64,000 bases of DNA, from the NCBI RefSeq assembly GCF_003852425.1, contig NZ_QAJN01000010.1, positions 124,724 through 188,723 on the forward strand, written 5' to 3'. Source of the stretch: Paucibacter sp. KBW04. Its GTDB lineage: Bacteria; Pseudomonadota; Gammaproteobacteria; Burkholderiales; Burkholderiaceae_C. The stretch's first letter is position 1; each line of letters begins with the position of its first letter. Positions 42,719 to 48,375 of this stretch are shown here, piece by piece. The position numbers and the translations under genes are program-made. Under the pieces are notes generated by a model. It did no database searches. It was not told where the DNA came from and saw only the letters and a program-made list of their open reading frames with translations.

Positions 42719-42775
42719 AGCCCAAGCGGGCGGCGGCCTGAGCCATGCCTTCATGCCAGTTCCTGGCATCCAGCG

Positions 42776-42802
42776 AAAGCGGCCCGATGGCCGCTTTTTC
42801 TT
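42776..42802 (+). terminator. Intrinsic terminator after the CBS gene
   Basis: AAAGCGGCC (42776-42784) pairs with GGCCGCTTT (42789-42797) around CGAT, followed by further T residues. Its position argues that the next gene starts downstream, at 42811, rather than at the in-frame ATG 42745. Confidence 0.8.
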
Positions 42803-42810
42803 CGCCGACG

Positions 42811-43989
42811 ATGCAGGCCACGACCTTGCTGTCTTGCCGTCGCCGCAGTTGGCCGCTTGCCGCCTACCTGCTTTTCAGCCCTGTTGCCATGATGCCTGTC
42901 AGCCCTAGCTTCGCAGCAGCGGGTGGGCCGCAGATTCAGCGCCTGAGCCTGGCAGCCGGCCAGGCTCAGCAAGAGCTTTTGTTTGAGGTCACGGGTGAGC
43001 CGGGCGGCGGGGAGAGTCGCCTGGTCTTCGCCGCCTTGCGCAGCACCGTGGCCTTGGCCGCGATCGAGTTATTGGACCCTGAGCAGCGTCGCGTCTGGCG
43101 CCGCACGCCTGCTCAGCTGGGCTTCACGCCGCAGGCACTGGCCCAACACCCCGAGTTGGGTGATGCGATCGGCCTGCCCGAACTGCGTCGGCCCCAGCCT
43201 GGCCGCTGGCGATTGAGGCTTGAGCGGGCCCAGCCCTTGCGCCAGGCCGGGCAGCTCTTGTTTTCGTTCCGTCAACTGCCCCGGTTTGAGCTCAGCCTCA
43301 CGGCCCTCAGTGCCGAGCCGGCCGTGGGCCAGGTGCAGAACTATGTGCTGCGCCCGGCCGACTTTGGGGCGCCGATCTTGGGCCTGGGTGCCCTGGCCCT
43401 GGTCTTGCAGGACGCGGCCGGACAATCGTTTCCCGTACCTGCTGCACAAGAGCAGCTGCGCAGCCCGGCCGGGCTTTTGATCAGCGACGAGCCCGGCGCC
43501 TATATCAGCCGCTTCGCTTTGCCCGCTCCTGGCGAGTACCGCGTGCGAGCGCGTCAGCAGTTCCCTGGCGGCCAGTTCGCCGAGGCCGAGATCAAGCTGG
43601 TGGCACGCGGCGTTGCGGCCTTGGCGGGCTCACCCCTGCGTTTGGAAGGCATCCGTTTTGAGCGCCAGGCGGGCTGCTTGCAGGCCGCGGTGCTGGAACT
43701 CGGCCTGGACATCGCCAGCCCCGGGCTGTATGCCGTGACTGTGCAGTTGGTGCTGGGCGCCAACTCGCGCCAGCTCAGTCGCTCCGCCCAGCTGCAAGCC
43801 GGCAAGGCCAGTTTGCAGCTGGCCCTGCCCGCCAGCACTTTGCGCGAATTGGGTGGCGCGCCCAAGCGCATTGCTCGCCTAGGCCTGCTTCGCTTTGGGC
43901 CCGACAAAGCCGGTCCGGTGGCGGAGTTGCTGGACATTGCCCTCAGCGCCGAGCAGCAAGCGCAATTGATATCGCTGTGCGCCGGCTGA
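42811..43989 (+). CDS. Hypothetical exported beta-sandwich protein
   Basis: A 392-aa protein with a signal peptide (RRRSWPLAAYLLFSP, cleavage near PSFAAAGG, about residue 35). The mature part is strand-rich. The stretches ELLDP, a PGRW segment and GEYRVRARQQFPGG resemble parts of the dockerin protein encoded convergently at 44053, as does the C-terminal pattern GLDIASPGLYAVTVQLVLG compared with that protein's NNAGSYQVSFKILDAQG. The two are probably paralogues, but this one lacks a dockerin. The start at 42811 is chosen because a terminator hairpin lies between it and the upstream ATG. Function unknown. Confidence 0.72.
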   Translation: MQATTLLSCRRRSWPLAAYLLFSPVAMMPVSPSFAAAGGPQIQRLSLAAGQAQQELLFEVTGEPGGGESRLVFAALRSTVALAAIELLDPEQRRVWRRTPAQLGFTPQALAQHPELGDAIGLPELRRPQPGRWRLRLERAQPLRQAGQLLFSFRQLPRFELSLTALSAEPAVGQVQNYVLRPADFGAPILGLGALALVLQDAAGQSFPVPAAQEQLRSPAGLLISDEPGAYISRFALPAPGEYRVRARQQFPGGQFAEAEIKLVARGVAALAGSPLRLEGIRFERQAGCLQAAVLELGLDIASPGLYAVTVQLVLGANSRQLSRSAQLQAGKASLQLALPASTLRELGGAPKRIARLGLLRFGPDKAGPVAELLDIALSAEQQAQLISLCAG

Positions 43990-44020: not shown

Positions 44021-44042
44021 AAAAAAGCCCCTTGCGGGGCTT
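44021..44042 (-). terminator. Intrinsic terminator of the dockerin gene
   Basis: AAGCCCC (44025-44031) and GGGGCTT (44036-44042) form a perfect stem with a 4-nt loop. Read on the minus strand it is followed by a run of T residues (complement of the A run at 44021-44026). It also separates the convergent gene that ends at 43989. Confidence 0.8.
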
Positions 44043-44052
44043 GCTTCAACTC

Positions 44053-45759
44053 TCAATTCTTGGGGCAGTTGGGCGCGGTGCAGGCCTTCAGGATCAAGAG
44101 TCGGGAGTCCTGCAGATCGATCTTGCCGTCACCGTTGAGGTCGCGCCTATCGCCAGGGATCAGCGGGCTTTGACTGCGGTACTGCAAGAGCAGATCGCGG
44201 TCGGCCGAGTTGACACTGCCATCGCCGTTCAGGTCACCGGTGATGGTGGGAAAGATCTGCCAGCGTGACAAGCTGCTGCCGCTGACCGGGATGCGTGAGG
44301 CCTGGGCCGTGCTGCCGCCACCGACCACCAGCACCGACTCGATGCGGTAAGGCCCATCGCTGCGCTGCAGCTTGTCGGCCATCACGGTGGCCGTCACCCG
44401 GTTGTCACCGGCATTGAGGAAGTTGTTGAGGCCGAACTGACCCACTTCCAGGCCTTGAGCGTCCAAGATCTTGAAGGAGACCTGGTAGCTGCCCGCGTTG
44501 TTGACGCGGATGGGCAGGCTGAAGTCCAGCTGACCGACAAAGCCCATGCGCAGCACCGGATTGACCGAGGCACCGGCCGCCAGCTCGATCGGATCGGAGC
44601 AGAACTGAGAAAGCGTCAGGCCACTGAAACTGGTGGCGGCCTGCTTGCGCATCTCCAAGCGAGGCGATTGGCCCGAGAAAGCCAGCACGTCCAGCGGGTC
44701 GATGATGAAGTCACCGTCGGCGGCAAAGGTCTTGCGGATCTCGCTGGCGGTGTAGGACAGCTTGGCATTGAGGGCGCCCGGGCCACTCAAGACCACATTG
44801 CTGCGCTTGAGCAGGCTGCCGGGGCCGCCGCTGCTGAGCAAGGTGCCGGCGGTGGAGTAGGTGCCGGCGCTGGCCACTGTGCCGCTTAAATTGACGTCCA
44901 GCTGGCGCACGCAGCCCGAGGCCTCGCGTATCACCGTGCCGCTGACCGAGCCGAAGCTGAAGTTGGCCGGCACGATGTCCACAAAGCCGGTGGCGCTGCG
45001 CTGGATGCTGCCACCTCCCGGCGCCGGGATGTTGACCTTGCCGTCGATCTGGTAGCGGCCCGTCTGGCCAAAGCGATAGCCTTGGCTGTAGATGCCGTCA
45101 TCGGCCAGGCCGTCAAAATCGGCCGCCTGGCCGCTGTCCACGGCGGCCAGCGTGGCGACGGGATTGCCGTCCTTGCTGATGCTCAGGCTGGGCGCAACGC
45201 CCTTGATCGGCAGGCCTTGGTGTACCACCAGCAAGCCCAGGGGCACGGGCTGGCCCACGCGGAAGGTTTGGCCGCTGATCACCAGGCCGACCTGGTAGGG
45301 CGACTGGGCATAGCTACTCAGAATCGCCACCGTGGGCACGGGCGCGGCGGGGAAGGTGGCTTGCAGCGTCCACACCCCATCGGCCGGATTGGCGATGCTG
45401 GGCGTGATGAAGACGCCGCCCGGCAGTGGCGGGTTCAGCTGGGCACCGTCCAGAAAGCTGACGCGCGGGTCGTTGGCCGCGATCACCTCCTGGCCTTGCG
45501 GGTCCAGTAGGCTGATATGGGCGCCGCTGACCGGCAAGACCAGTTGCAGGCGCAAGTCGCTGAGGGCCGCGACCGGCAGCGGCAGGCGCAGCTGGGTGCT
45601 GCCGGCCGCGATGGGCTGGGCCCAGGTATTGGTGGGCGAGGTGTTGATCAGGCCAGAGTTCTGGGCCAGGGCGAGGGGCGTGGGGCCCGCAAAGCCCAGG
45701 GCAATTCCCAGGGCCAGGGCGCTCAGGCGCAGGGTTTGGTGGAGTCGAACAAAGCTCAT
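44053..45759 (-). CDS. Exported protein with C-terminal type I dockerin
   Basis: A 568-aa protein with a signal peptide (cleavage near PLALAQNS). The N-terminal region resembles choice-of-anchor/macroglobulin-like beta-sandwiches (the segment ADDGIYSQGYRFGQTGRYQI is typical), followed by a second beta-rich region with NNAGSYQVSFKILDAQG. The last 60 residues carry two F-hand calcium repeats, DLNGDGSVNSADRDLLLQYR and DLNGDGKIDLQDSRLLILKA, the hallmark of type I dockerins. The start at 45759 has AGGAG upstream. It lies 16 nt downstream of the lipase-like gene and near a cohesin-like PEP-CTERM gene. It may dock onto that protein; this is inference. Confidence 0.82.
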   Translation of the reverse strand: MSFVRLHQTLRLSALALGIALGFAGPTPLALAQNSGLINTSPTNTWAQPIAAGSTQLRLPLPVAALSDLRLQLVLPVSGAHISLLDPQGQEVIAANDPRVSFLDGAQLNPPLPGGVFITPSIANPADGVWTLQATFPAAPVPTVAILSSYAQSPYQVGLVISGQTFRVGQPVPLGLLVVHQGLPIKGVAPSLSISKDGNPVATLAAVDSGQAADFDGLADDGIYSQGYRFGQTGRYQIDGKVNIPAPGGGSIQRSATGFVDIVPANFSFGSVSGTVIREASGCVRQLDVNLSGTVASAGTYSTAGTLLSSGGPGSLLKRSNVVLSGPGALNAKLSYTASEIRKTFAADGDFIIDPLDVLAFSGQSPRLEMRKQAATSFSGLTLSQFCSDPIELAAGASVNPVLRMGFVGQLDFSLPIRVNNAGSYQVSFKILDAQGLEVGQFGLNNFLNAGDNRVTATVMADKLQRSDGPYRIESVLVVGGGSTAQASRIPVSGSSLSRWQIFPTITGDLNGDGSVNSADRDLLLQYRSQSPLIPGDRRDLNGDGKIDLQDSRLLILKACTAPNCPKN

Positions 45760-45775
45760 GATGTGGGCTCCTGGC

Positions 45776-47302
45776 TCAGCGAAGTTTGATCGATTGGTCA
45801 AGCAGCTTGCGCACGTTGTCGCCGTTCTTGACCGTCGAGTGATTGGTATTGCTCTGATTGCCCATGGGGGTGCCCCAGCCGGGGTTGGCGCTGTTCAGGC
45901 CCACCACCACATCGTTGGGGTTGAGCTGGGCATTGAGCACCGTTTTGTAGGTCAGCACGGTGATGGGGGGCGACTGCGGATCGAGGCTTGGGATGACCTC
46001 GAAGCTCAGTTGCACCGCCGAGCTGAAGTTGCAGATGCCCATATAGGCCAGGCGCAGGGCGTTGTAGGTGTAGCTGCCGACAAAAGGCACGCTGGAAACG
46101 GGGTTCATGGGGTCGATCTCGCCATCGGTGGGCTCGCGGCTGCAGTTGGGGCCGGCATCCGCACCGATGGTGAAGGTGTTGGCCACATTGCCGCGCAGGC
46201 CGGCAGGGATGGCTTCGTTGGCGACCTGGGTGGTTAGGTCGATCAGGCCGGGAGGCTGGGGGCCGGCGCCAAAGCCGCTGGCAATGCCCGCCACCGTGCT
46301 GTCGATGAATTTGCGCGCATAGCCATTGGGGTCCTGGCCATTGCCCTCGTAAATCGTGGCCAGGCTGCGTTGCAGCATCGTCAGGTCGGCCACGACCGAG
46401 CCGCGGTGCGGGGTCGACAAGGTGCCCAGGGACAGCACTTCGAAGTCCGGTGGGCTCAGCACCGCCAGGGCTTGTGAATCCAGGCCGCCCTTGCTGTGCA
46501 CGATCAGATTGACCTTGCTGGCTTTGACCGTGTCCAGGAAACCCTTGATCTTGGTCTTCAGGTCCTGGGCATTCGTCATCACCGCGCCGTTCTTGTTGGC
46601 GGTGGAGAAGCGATCGAAGAGCACACCGCTTTCATTCATGGTCTTCAACACGCCAGGGGCGGCACCGTCTTCCCAGGTGCTGCGATCCGCCGCGATGCCG
46701 TGCGCCAGCACATAGGGGAAGGCAGCGTCGAACTCGATGCCCACCCAGTCCACGGCCATGCACCAGTATTCGCCGTTGCCGACATTGCCGGTGTCGATAT
46801 CGACCTGGAACTCATTGACCACGCCGGGGTTGCCAGGGCTGGCGAACTTGACCTGGGAGATGTCGACCTCGAAGGAGTCATTCACCCAGGTGTTGTTGAA
46901 GCCTGACAAGGTCTTGATGAAGCTGCCGTTCCAGGACAGGCGATCGATCTCGGGCGCGTAAGTGCCGTCGGTCACGGCCTTGTCGTCGATGTCATAGACC
47001 GGGAAGGATATCTTCGCCTTGGCGCCCACCACCTTGTCGGCGATCAGCTTGCTCGGGTCCTTCAGTGTGCCGTCGGGATTGAGCTGGGTCTCGTTGACGG
47101 GGGCGGGTACCTTGAAGCGCACCACCAGCGGGCCGCCGCTGCGATAGGTGCAGCCGGTATCCAGGCCGCCGCCCGAATTCATCACGTATTTGCCCATATC
47201 CTCCTTGGGCGGAGGGAAGGGCGAGCTGGTCTGAGCCTGGCTCCAAAGGCTGCAAACGCCCAGGGCCAAGCCAACGCCGAAGCGAAGCAAGGGTGTCTTC
47301 AT
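45776..47302 (-). CDS. Exported lipase-like alpha/beta hydrolase
   Basis: A 508-aa protein with a signal peptide (LRFGVGLALGVCSLWSQAQ). The first 200 residues form an unrecognised beta-rich domain. The hydrolase part begins with VLAHGIAADRSTWED, the oxyanion region, and has the nucleophile serine in LIVHSKGGLDSQA; STPHRGS follows, as in bacterial triacylglycerol lipases and PGAP1-like esterases. A histidine in NQSNTNHSTVKNG near the C-terminus could be catalytic. It is encoded between the cohesin-like and dockerin genes on one strand, so it may be the enzymatic part of the same export system. Confidence 0.78.
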   Translation of the reverse strand: MKTPLLRFGVGLALGVCSLWSQAQTSSPFPPPKEDMGKYVMNSGGGLDTGCTYRSGGPLVVRFKVPAPVNETQLNPDGTLKDPSKLIADKVVGAKAKISFPVYDIDDKAVTDGTYAPEIDRLSWNGSFIKTLSGFNNTWVNDSFEVDISQVKFASPGNPGVVNEFQVDIDTGNVGNGEYWCMAVDWVGIEFDAAFPYVLAHGIAADRSTWEDGAAPGVLKTMNESGVLFDRFSTANKNGAVMTNAQDLKTKIKGFLDTVKASKVNLIVHSKGGLDSQALAVLSPPDFEVLSLGTLSTPHRGSVVADLTMLQRSLATIYEGNGQDPNGYARKFIDSTVAGIASGFGAGPQPPGLIDLTTQVANEAIPAGLRGNVANTFTIGADAGPNCSREPTDGEIDPMNPVSSVPFVGSYTYNALRLAYMGICNFSSAVQLSFEVIPSLDPQSPPITVLTYKTVLNAQLNPNDVVVGLNSANPGWGTPMGNQSNTNHSTVKNGDNVRKLLDQSIKLR

Positions 47303-47329
47303 GATGGTGTTCCTTTTGACTCAGGATTC

Positions 47330-47347
47330 GGCCAAGGCTTTGGCCGC
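47330..47347 (-). promoter_or_regulatory. Hairpin between cohesin-like and lipase-like genes
   Basis: CGGCCAA (47330-47336) and TTGGCCG (47341-47347) form a perfect 7-bp stem with a 4-nt loop in the 104-nt gap. There is no T-run after it on the minus strand, so it is more likely an mRNA-stability or processing hairpin than a terminator. Confidence 0.4.
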
Positions 47348-47406
47348 TGAAGGAGGCTGGAGGCCTGTCTGCCCGGGCCCACTGGCCTCTGCGCAAGCCT
47401 TGTTCG

Positions 47407-48375
47407 TCAAAGCTTGCTGAAGCTGGGCGAGCCGACATGGATGCTGTCGCCCCGGGCTTGCGCCAAACCTTGAATGCGTTGGCCTACCTTGTCGGCACTC
47501 AGGGCGCTGGAGGTGGTGATCCAGAACACCCGGCCGTCATCCACCGCCTTCAGCTTGGCTCGGCTGCCCGCAATTTCCAAGACCACCGCATCTATCGGTG
47601 TGCCCTTGCTGGTGGCGGCAGGCGTGGGGCTGCTGAGCGTAGCTTGGGCCTGGGTCGCGGTGCTGAAGCTAAGGGCGCCCAGCAGCAAGGCCAGCACCGC
47701 CGTCGCACTGCGCAGCAAACCCGCATTCTTTCCCAGACTCAGTCCCATGGCTGCCAGGGCCAGCAGGGCCAGGGCGAGCGCGCCTGGCTCGGGGACTTGG
47801 CCGTTGTTGGGGGTGATTTCGACGAAGGCTTGCGTGGTCTGCAACTCGATCGGCAGTAGCGCGCCTTGGCTGTCCAGGAAGAGTAGACCGGGATCAGTCA
47901 AATCAATGCTGAACTCCGCGCCGCTGCTGGCAGCCATGGCCGTGAACATCAGGCTTAAGAAGCGGAAGCCGTTGGCCTGATCGGCGTCCAGCAGGGCTGC
48001 ACCATTGCCGGAAAGTCCGTAAGCATCGATCATCCCGCTGCTCAAGCTCGCATCGCCGACAAAGCCCAGTGAGTCTGGGTCTGGCAAATCGAGCTGATTG
48101 AGGCCGCTGGCAGGGTCGGTGAAGCTAAAGCCATTCAAGCTCGCCAGGGCCGGGTTGAGCAAGACATTGATGTCGAAGCCGCTCAGCGAATTGCCATTTG
48201 CAGCACTCAAGCCCGCAATCGCGAAGTTGATGGAAAAACTCTCGCCTACATGCACGCTGGACTGTGAGGCGCTGACGATCACCACCGGGGCGGCTTGGGC
48301 CGTGACTCCGCCCAGCATGCCGGCCACCAAGCTGCTCGCGCACAGTGCTTGTTTGCACAAGAGACCAAGATTCAT
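47407..48375 (-). CDS. Cohesin-like PEP-CTERM protein with extra C-terminal domain
   Basis: A 322-aa exported protein. The signal peptide ends near TAQAAP (residue 28). Residues 30-190 form a cohesin-like beta-sandwich, with the typical opening SASQSSVHVGESFSINFAI and GFDINVLLNPALASL. A PEP-CTERM-type motif VPEP at 194-197 is followed by a hydrophobic helix and a basic residue. Normally such a motif ends the protein, but here a second hydrophobic stretch (224-240) with an AQA cleavage-like site and about 78 more residues follow. The start at 48375 has AGGGAG upstream. It leads the three-gene strand with the lipase-like and dockerin genes. Confidence 0.78.
   Translation of the reverse strand: MNLGLLCKQALCASSLVAGMLGGVTAQAAPVVIVSASQSSVHVGESFSINFAIAGLSAANGNSLSGFDINVLLNPALASLNGFSFTDPASGLNQLDLPDPDSLGFVGDASLSSGMIDAYGLSGNGAALLDADQANGFRFLSLMFTAMAASSGAEFSIDLTDPGLLFLDSQGALLPIELQTTQAFVEITPNNGQVPEPGALALALLALAAMGLSLGKNAGLLRSATAVLALLLGALSFSTATQAQATLSSPTPAATSKGTPIDAVVLEIAGSRAKLKAVDDGRVFWITTSSALSADKVGQRIQGLAQARGDSIHVGSPSFSKL

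Follow-up and report, generated by a model that had tools for sequence, protein, structure and literature searches.

A lipase-like hydrolase gene between cohesin-like and dockerin genes in Paucibacter sp. KBW04: a candidate monovalent display operon with an exosortase-type anchor

Does a Gram-negative bacterium use a single cohesin–dockerin pair to hold a lipase at its surface? The question is raised by a locus of Paucibacter sp. KBW04, which lies on contig 2 (NZ_QAJN01000010.1) of the 5.6-Mb genome, within the stretch of 64,000 nucleotides analysed here (the window; positions 124,724 to 188,723 of the contig). Three neighbouring minus-strand open reading frames follow one another head to tail and encode, in order of transcription, P0003, a cohesin-like PEP-CTERM protein, P0002, a lipase-like hydrolase, and P0001, a protein ending in a dockerin. 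The frames, their order and their common strand are as a preliminary description of this DNA had given them (Table 1). In our judgement the locus is probably a monovalent display operon, in which an exosortase-anchored cohesin and a dockerin, acting as a predicted calcium-dependent plug, would hold the lipase at the surface. To judge from sequence, it is one of a number of candidate cohesin–dockerin gene pairs in related bacteria, where they occur with other enzymes.

The nature of the P0003 domain emerges from its predicted structure and from its relatives. The AlphaFold model is confident over residues 31-190, with block means of 85-94 for the predicted local distance difference test (pLDDT), and the best 50 Foldseek matches to this segment are all cohesin or scaffoldin structures by title; against 3ul4_A the template-modelling score by target length is 0.79 (Foldseek). 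The domain thus has the cohesin fold. Sequence searches of Pfam, NCBIfam and the PDB with P0003 alone return no cohesin, and neither does a comparison with the PDB of the profile of its nine-member family (alignment A4, which includes P0003 and leaves out the relative at locus L027, cut at a contig edge). Pfam Cohesin matches five of the nine members, with a best E of 0.0012 and P0003 not among the five, and P0003-type relatives reach 18-20 bits against Cohesin in a genome scan, below the cut-off of 24.1. When a profile of 15 related domains (A6; P0003 included, signal peptide and PEP-CTERM trimmed off) is compared with the PDB, cellulosomal cohesins rank first, the best being 3l8q at E 1.5e-12. 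By fold and family, we take the P0003 domain to be a distant cohesin. The cohesin-like module of the preliminary description therefore stands on the fold, the five family members and the A6 profile, whilst the profile check proposed there, on P0003 itself, gave no Pfam match. Its author had ranked this assignment below that of the dockerin; the latter exceeds its Pfam cut-off on its own.

P0001 ends, as had been described, in two type I dockerin repeats, that is, two duplicated calcium-binding loop-helix units. They match Dockerin_1 with 31.4 bits in a protein scan, for which the Pfam cut-off is 22.9, and with 36.8 bits in a genome scan, and the calcium-loop residues D509, D513, D520, D540, N542, D544 and D551 are invariant across 10 aligned proteins. 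The dockerins of two relatives (genomes G540 and G548) fall short of a Pfam E of 0.001 in the genome scan. The immunoglobulin-like body of P0001 is modelled as a chain of beta sandwiches, for which the best Foldseek match is the DUF4785 protein 4kh9, and shows a near-threshold match to the NCBIfam family 'choice-of-anchor X' (24.7 bits versus a cut-off of 25). A Cys-x4-Cys tail (for example ACTAPNCPKN) closes the dockerins of P0001 (44053-44091), L024-L029, L035, L138, L139, L069, L218 and L219 and is missing in L030 and L031; it is possibly a disulphide clamp.

The linkage of the three genes, for which the preliminary description had called for a survey, holds well beyond this genome. Scanned with the lipase profile, GTDB genomes yielded 15 loci, nine of which keep the triple in the same order and on the same strand (in Roseateles, Pelomonas, a Rhodocyclaceae metagenome-assembled genome (MAG), Massilia, Pseudoduganella and relatives; L027, whose cohesin gene runs off the contig, is counted among them), with flanks that differ at least in L014. 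At three further loci, two from Vibrio and one from Enterovibrio, the lipase adjoins an immunoglobulin (Ig)-like body in a protein with a different C-terminus; there is no cohesin-like gene in these loci, and the three genomes contain no match to Cohesin (E<=0.1), Dockerin_1 (E<=0.001), exosortase or A6. The remaining three loci have fused parts: hydrolase and Ig body form a single protein in L036 and L037, and L038 matches over the N-terminal domain of the lipase only. A dockerin match is missing from all three fused proteins, and no cohesin-like gene is found in their loci. The L036 protein, from Ornithinimicrobium, ends in CW_binding_2 repeats, a Gram-positive wall anchor, and its genome is without any match to cohesin, dockerin or exosortase. 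Exosortase is present in the genomes of L037 and L038, the former of which also has a Dockerin_1 match elsewhere. Cohesin and dockerin are thus jointly missing from the locus in six of the 15 cases, the Ig-like body being present there without a dockerin match (for L033 this is read from the genome, which has no Dockerin_1 match, rather than from a single-protein Pfam scan). From these comparisons the dockerin seems to come and go with the cohesin at this locus. The lipase module, for its part, seems to change its anchor with the host, since L036 carries a wall anchor and the Vibrio and Enterovibrio Ig proteins differ C-terminally. Full-length lipase is found in three of 150 genomes of the family, and at order level the module is rare, as its profile matches one of 399 sampled genomes at E<=1e-20, the window's own.

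Taken from the cohesin side, the association with dockerins is far tighter than when it is taken from the dockerin side. In 20 chosen genomes, A6 matches 24 places in 16 genomes, and 23 of these are adjacent to, or one gene from, a dockerin gene; the last is a secretin-sized frame of 773 amino acids (aa). Fifteen of the 24 are training rows, chosen from pairs, and eight of the nine others are linked. Nineteen of the 23 dockerin neighbours match Dockerin_1 at E<=0.001. Those of G540:C1 (L026) and G548:C23 (L035) are counted as dockerins because they align with P0001, and L026 and L035 themselves seed the home-made dockerin profile. G077:C5 and G542:C5 first seemed unlinked; a dockerin was predicted from the cohesin in each, and dockerin-type C-termini were then found in the neighbouring gene, at 16 bits with Pfam, below the cut-off, and at 45 and 47 bits with the home-made profile. 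The two partners also diverge in parallel: cohesin and dockerin distances correlate with a Mantel r of 0.89 over 21 pairs, 0.80 over 12 non-lipase pairs and 0.77 over 13 representatives (p 0.0001 each; L193, L207, L218, L219 and L027 left out). Where two pair types occur within one genome they stay distinct, and each follows its own kind across genomes.

The window's genome is itself such a case. It has two Dockerin_1 matches at E<=0.001, the second of which, at C31, forms the C-terminus of a 1019-aa protease of the M12B reprolysin type. Its candidate socket, a 202-aa protein that matches both Pfam Cohesin (53 bits) and PEP-CTERM, is encoded about 1 kb from the protease gene in divergent orientation with one small gene between. 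Each enzyme module thus appears to have its own socket, since this second pair would serve the M12B protease in the same genome. A small gene between the C31-type cohesin and the M12B dockerin protease is seen at 3481-4056 of L015, with a sub-threshold match to DUF6438 (26.3 bits versus a cut-off of 30), and a small gene occupies the same place in L066 and L067. Pairs elsewhere involve M12B proteases (L067, L135), a C25 protease (L134), a metallophosphoesterase (L138), a GDSL lipase (L139), an IgGFc-binding-domain protein (L219) and others, including a 728-aa dockerin protein in L068 whose N-terminus resembles phospholipase C by eye, without Pfam support. The candidate sockets of these pairs are cohesin-like proteins, about 180-250 aa long, whose tail is either PEP-CTERM or PEP-CTERM-like; the L139 cohesin has no Pfam Cohesin match, and that of L134 has a weak one (16 bits). 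We lean, by a little, towards a wider interpretation in which the Pseudomonadota would have a general 'one socket, one plug' toolkit for surface display that had not been described before, made up of small exosortase-anchored cohesins beside dockerin-tailed hydrolases, with orthogonal pairs coexisting and with the lipase-type cohesin gene encoding a polyprotein that would be split by an internal signal peptide.

The last of these elements concerns the unusual C-terminal half of P0003. The protein has the PEP motif, hydrophobic segment and basic residues of a PEP-CTERM substrate, and Pfam finds PEP-CTERM in eight of the nine A4 members, the motif in L029 reading VSEP. In all nine, some 95-120 residues follow, comprising basic residues, a hydrophobic stretch, an A-x-A-like site (by eye) and a conserved small domain. 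A frameshift or assembly fault was considered as the source of this tail in P0003 and rejected, since the tail is open in nine of nine. In L027 the cohesin frame stops just past PEP-CTERM (RRRRALPV), so that the motif is terminal there; the tail is encoded separately, by a gene that has a ribosome-binding-site-like AAGGAG stretch and a signal-like start of its own. The halves of P0003 can therefore work apart. P0003 is best seen, we infer, as a fusion of two secreted proteins that would be separated by exosortase and signal peptidase. Exosortase is present in the window's genome (G000; two EpsH matches) and over the cut-off in nine of 10 lipase-cluster genomes, the tenth being a MAG with a partial match below it. 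The exosortase-tail anchor of the preliminary description is accordingly borne out as to motif, which is over its cut-off, and enzyme, whilst the motif proved to be internal, and the tail behind it had not been mentioned.

For the enzyme, Pfam gives only sub-threshold matches to P0002 alone. The profile of its family (A1) matches bacterial lipases in the PDB, with 1qge at E 1.8e-8, and P0002, like P0003 and P0001, has a signal-peptide-like start (by eye), in keeping with the secreted lipase-like hydrolase first described. Ser270, Asp464 and His488, a predicted lipase-type triad in which the roles of Asp464 and His488 are assigned by analogy, do not vary among the 13 aligned sequences, and neither does the HG at 201-202. 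Against 1qge and 1cvl, which we take to be bacterial family I lipases, the serine motif HSKGG and the TPHRGS region align; P0002 differs from them in an extra N-terminal domain of about 170 aa and in having an Ig-like partner protein. Its closest named relative is that of Roseateles oligotrophus S00239, with 98% identity. P0002 carries no dockerin. A tie to P0001 is suggested by conserved adjacency in 12 of the 15 loci and by L036 and L037, in each of which the hydrolase forms part of a natural fusion.

With the genes, folds, linkage and covariation as observed, the following course may be proposed for processing, location and the two binding steps. P0003 would be exported and its PEP-CTERM processed by exosortase, so as to put the cohesin at the surface or in exopolysaccharide. 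Signal peptidase would cut at the internal A-x-A site, freeing the tail as a small periplasmic protein. P0002 and P0001 would also be exported, and the Ig-like body of P0001 would associate with the lipase. In the presence of Ca2+, the P0001 dockerin would bind the P0003 cohesin, and the lipase would therefore be held at the cell surface.

A number of observations weigh against this scheme. On the side of the modules, P0003 alone has no match to Pfam Cohesin (PF00963) at a limit of E 10, a limit at which HMMER filters discard most matches above 0.1, and in the P0001 model the dockerin has low confidence (block means of 49-58 for pLDDT). Most dockerin-like genes, moreover, have no adjacent cohesin, as two samples indicate. 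Dockerin_1 at E<=1e-4 occurs in 22 of 399 genomes of the order, at 32 places, of which 19 were examined (the remaining 13 lie mostly in very long frames); 13 of the 19 are without a linked cohesin-like gene, some of these loci being cut by contig ends, and six have one (the window, L015, L134, L135, L138, L139). At E<=1e-5 it occurs in 31 of 369 genomes of the class, at 46 places, 43 of which are covered by 39 new loci; an adjacent cohesin-like gene is missing in 34 of the 39 and present, with a PEP-like tail, in five (L183, L191, L193, L197 and L207, as judged by profile, where L193 reached no better than E 0.002 and L207 was not picked up before the second round). The profile of the first round, with 12 seeds and no PEP tails, already found L134, L135, L138, L139, L183, L191 and L197, at E 6e-18 to 1e-4, and a control with 2440 reversed frames gave no match at E<=1 in any round. 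Left out of the linked counts are L216, where the cohesin-like gene is about 4 kb away, and L203. In the latter, a 176-aa, weakly cohesin-like protein without a PEP tail is encoded directly before the dockerin gene on a short contig, and another dockerin-like frame follows. Cohesin domains also end secretin-sized proteins that have no dockerin link, and linkage alone could produce part of the mirror-tree correlation. On the side of the anchor, about 110 residues separate the PEP-CTERM motif of P0003 from its extreme C-terminus. A passage of PMC1569441 (Haft 2006) states that 87% of PEP-CTERM proteins have <10 residues past the motif and that those few whose tails are far longer may lack function. 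The tails of L139, L183, L191, L197 and L207 are PEP-like by eye only, being below the Pfam cut-off or unmatched. Genome G339 has a cohesin–dockerin pair and no exosortase match, and G550, which has a fused locus, has exosortase and one Dockerin_1 match elsewhere and no cohesin match.

Could it be, then, that the pair does not bind at all? P0003 would be a generic beta-sandwich PEP-CTERM protein, the EF-hands would only stabilise P0001, and the locus would comprise a lipase and two unrelated surface proteins. Cohesin folds in dockerin-free secretin-sized proteins and the preponderance of sampled dockerin-like repeats without a cohesin neighbour fit this view, which we nevertheless hold to be quite unlikely: 23 of the 24 cohesin-like places are dockerin-linked with varied cargo enzymes (15 of the 24 being training rows), cohesins and dockerins diverge in parallel, both are absent from the three Vibrio and Enterovibrio genomes, and the same-genus genome G144 has neither a dockerin nor an A6 match, showing one sub-threshold Pfam Cohesin match (E 0.056). 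Granted binding, the P0001 dockerin might be promiscuous and mainly bind the C31 cohesin, or P0003 might receive the protease, the gene order of the locus being incidental. Two cohesins and two dockerins in one genome allow for such an exchange. It is made very unlikely by the two dockerin types, which have different spacers and sequences and, in several genomes, segregate together with the two types of cohesin, and by G543, G544 and G548, where the lipase-cluster cohesin is the only A6 cohesin.

Two other alternatives accept the pair and dispute where the lipase ends up. The PEP-CTERM and second hydrophobic segments of P0003 may form an inner-membrane hairpin, so that the cohesin stays periplasmic and the lipase acts inside the envelope. 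This would accommodate the long tail past PEP-CTERM, the second hydrophobic segment, preceded by basic residues in nine of nine, and the suggestion in PMC1569441 about long-tailed cases; the separation of cohesin and tail into two genes in L027, the ordinary terminal PEP-CTERM of several other pairs and the A-x-A-like sites (by eye) after the second segment render it unlikely. The lipase might also be freely secreted and only P0001 displayed, as the want of a dockerin in P0002 would allow. We regard this as conceivable albeit doubtful, given that the P0002 and P0001 genes are neighbours in 12 of the 15 loci and their counterparts form one polypeptide in L036 and L037 (L038 matching over the lipase N-domain only). 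Surface display of the lipase through a bound cohesin–dockerin pair thus remains our preferred account.

Table 1. Features of the three-gene locus, in coordinates of the window
Feature	Coordinates	Strand	Content or evidence
P0003, cohesin-like PEP-CTERM protein, 322 aa	47407..48375	-	signal peptide, cohesin fold, internal PEP-CTERM, second signal-like segment, small C-terminal domain
Cohesin-like domain, P0003 residues 29-188	47812..48291	-	AlphaFold/Foldseek; profile A6 vs PDB; Pfam Cohesin in 5/9 family members, not P0003
PEP-CTERM motif, P0003 residues 193-213	47737..47799	-	Pfam PF07589, 21.2 bits vs cut-off 20.7
Second hydrophobic, signal-peptide-like segment, P0003 ~residues 224-243	47647..47706	-	basic residues before; ends near A-x-A
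Small C-terminal domain, P0003 ~residues 259-320	47416..47601	-	all-beta in model; no family over cut-off
P0002, secreted lipase-like alpha/beta hydrolase, 508 aa	45776..47302	-	profile A1 vs PDB lipases
P0001, dockerin protein, 568 aa	44053..45759	-	signal peptide, tandem beta-sandwich body (DUF4785-like), C-terminal dockerin
Type I dockerin, P0001 residues 508-556	44092..44238	-	Pfam PF00404, E 2.1e-7
Terminator-like hairpin directly 3' of the dockerin gene	44025..44042	-	
P0004, secreted, dockerin-less relative of the P0001 body, convergent neighbour	42745..43989	+	

Stretches resembling ribosome-binding sites precede the ATGs at 48375, 47302 and 45759 (by eye). P0001 starts 16 bases past the stop of P0002, with an AGGAG stretch ahead, and ATG 45759 is more likely to be its start than TTG 45801. 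Two terminator-like hairpins were found in the region against 3.6 expected by chance, and the one in Table 1 is favoured by its placement only. Counterparts of P0004 lie beside the cluster in L024, L025, L026 and L035; in L026 and L035 the counterpart follows directly, on the strand of the dockerin gene, and overlaps the 3' end of that gene.

Some observations from the wider samples concern cohesins and dockerins in other settings. In L072, L073 and L074, which come from other genomes, secretin-sized proteins of 735-791 aa with a C-terminal cohesin-like domain are encoded among pilin-like genes, and no dockerin was seen there; the cohesin fold is put to another use in these proteins. A Pfam Cohesin match alone was rejected as a mark of a dockerin partner, many matches in the order sample lying in frames of about 750-950 aa and those of L072-L074 among pilin-like genes. 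Small PEP-CTERM-like proteins with a VPVPA-type tail occur near dockerin genes in L179 (two), L180, L196, L199 and L201; they have no cohesin match, were not counted and might represent either divergent sockets or partners of some other kind. At G339:C1, G455:C277, G178:C2 and G427:C17, dockerin and cohesin matches lie on one and the same contig in frames of equal length (1110 to about 14,000 aa), which suggests long surface proteins carrying both modules.

Noncellulosomal cohesin and dockerin modules are said to occur in all domains of life, reportedly as set out by Peer et al. in 2009. For such modules the present comparison identifies a gene-pair architecture that recurs, a type of anchor and an enzyme cargo. 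A passage of PMC5244752, on methanotrophic archaea, calls cohesin/dockerin function outside the cellulosome not known; that question becomes testable with two small proteins. This paper was the only one found in the open-licence literature to bring exosortase together with dockerin, and none was found there that brings PEP-CTERM together with cohesin. Passages of a 2024 survey of cellulosome-displaying bacteria (PMC11557425) contain no word beginning Proteobacteria, Pseudomonadota or Burkholderia, a match that Gammaproteobacteria would escape. The linked pairs suggest a concrete set of receptors for the exosortase system, and would supply short, possibly orthogonal cohesin–dockerin pairs of Gram-negative origin.

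How, finally, does the locus compare with known systems? With the type I pairs of cellulosomes (the OlpA and OlpC cohesins of Clostridium thermocellum, PDB 3ul4 and 4dh2) it shares the cohesin fold and a C-terminal dockerin with duplicated calcium loops, and cellulosome systems also include single-cohesin anchoring proteins. Unlike cellulosomes, it belongs to a Gram-negative host, its anchor is of the PEP-CTERM/exosortase type rather than an S-layer homology domain or LPxTG motif, and the genes for socket and plug are linked. A cellulosome label was considered and rejected: P0003 has one cohesin domain, and the three genes encode no polyvalent scaffoldin, carbohydrate-binding module, glycosidase or cellulase family, the cohesins of the whole genome amounting to two A6 matches and a sub-threshold Pfam match in a 5515-aa frame. 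The PEP-CTERM/EpsH system, as outlined in passages of PMC1569441, provides the motif, hydrophobic segment and basic residues, and exosortases are present in the genome; P0003 departs from it in its internal motif, with a second signal-like segment and a domain behind. Nearest in spirit is the 'planctosome' proposed for Planctomycetes, where, in the part of PMC6461901 concerned with it, cohesin–dockerin contacts hold peptidases of the M12B reprolysin type, as in the second pair of the Paucibacter genome. The planctosome is described there with a 2,210-aa anchoring protein and an adaptor, whereas here a PEP-CTERM cohesin of about 200 aa is paired with an enzyme that bears the dockerin directly.

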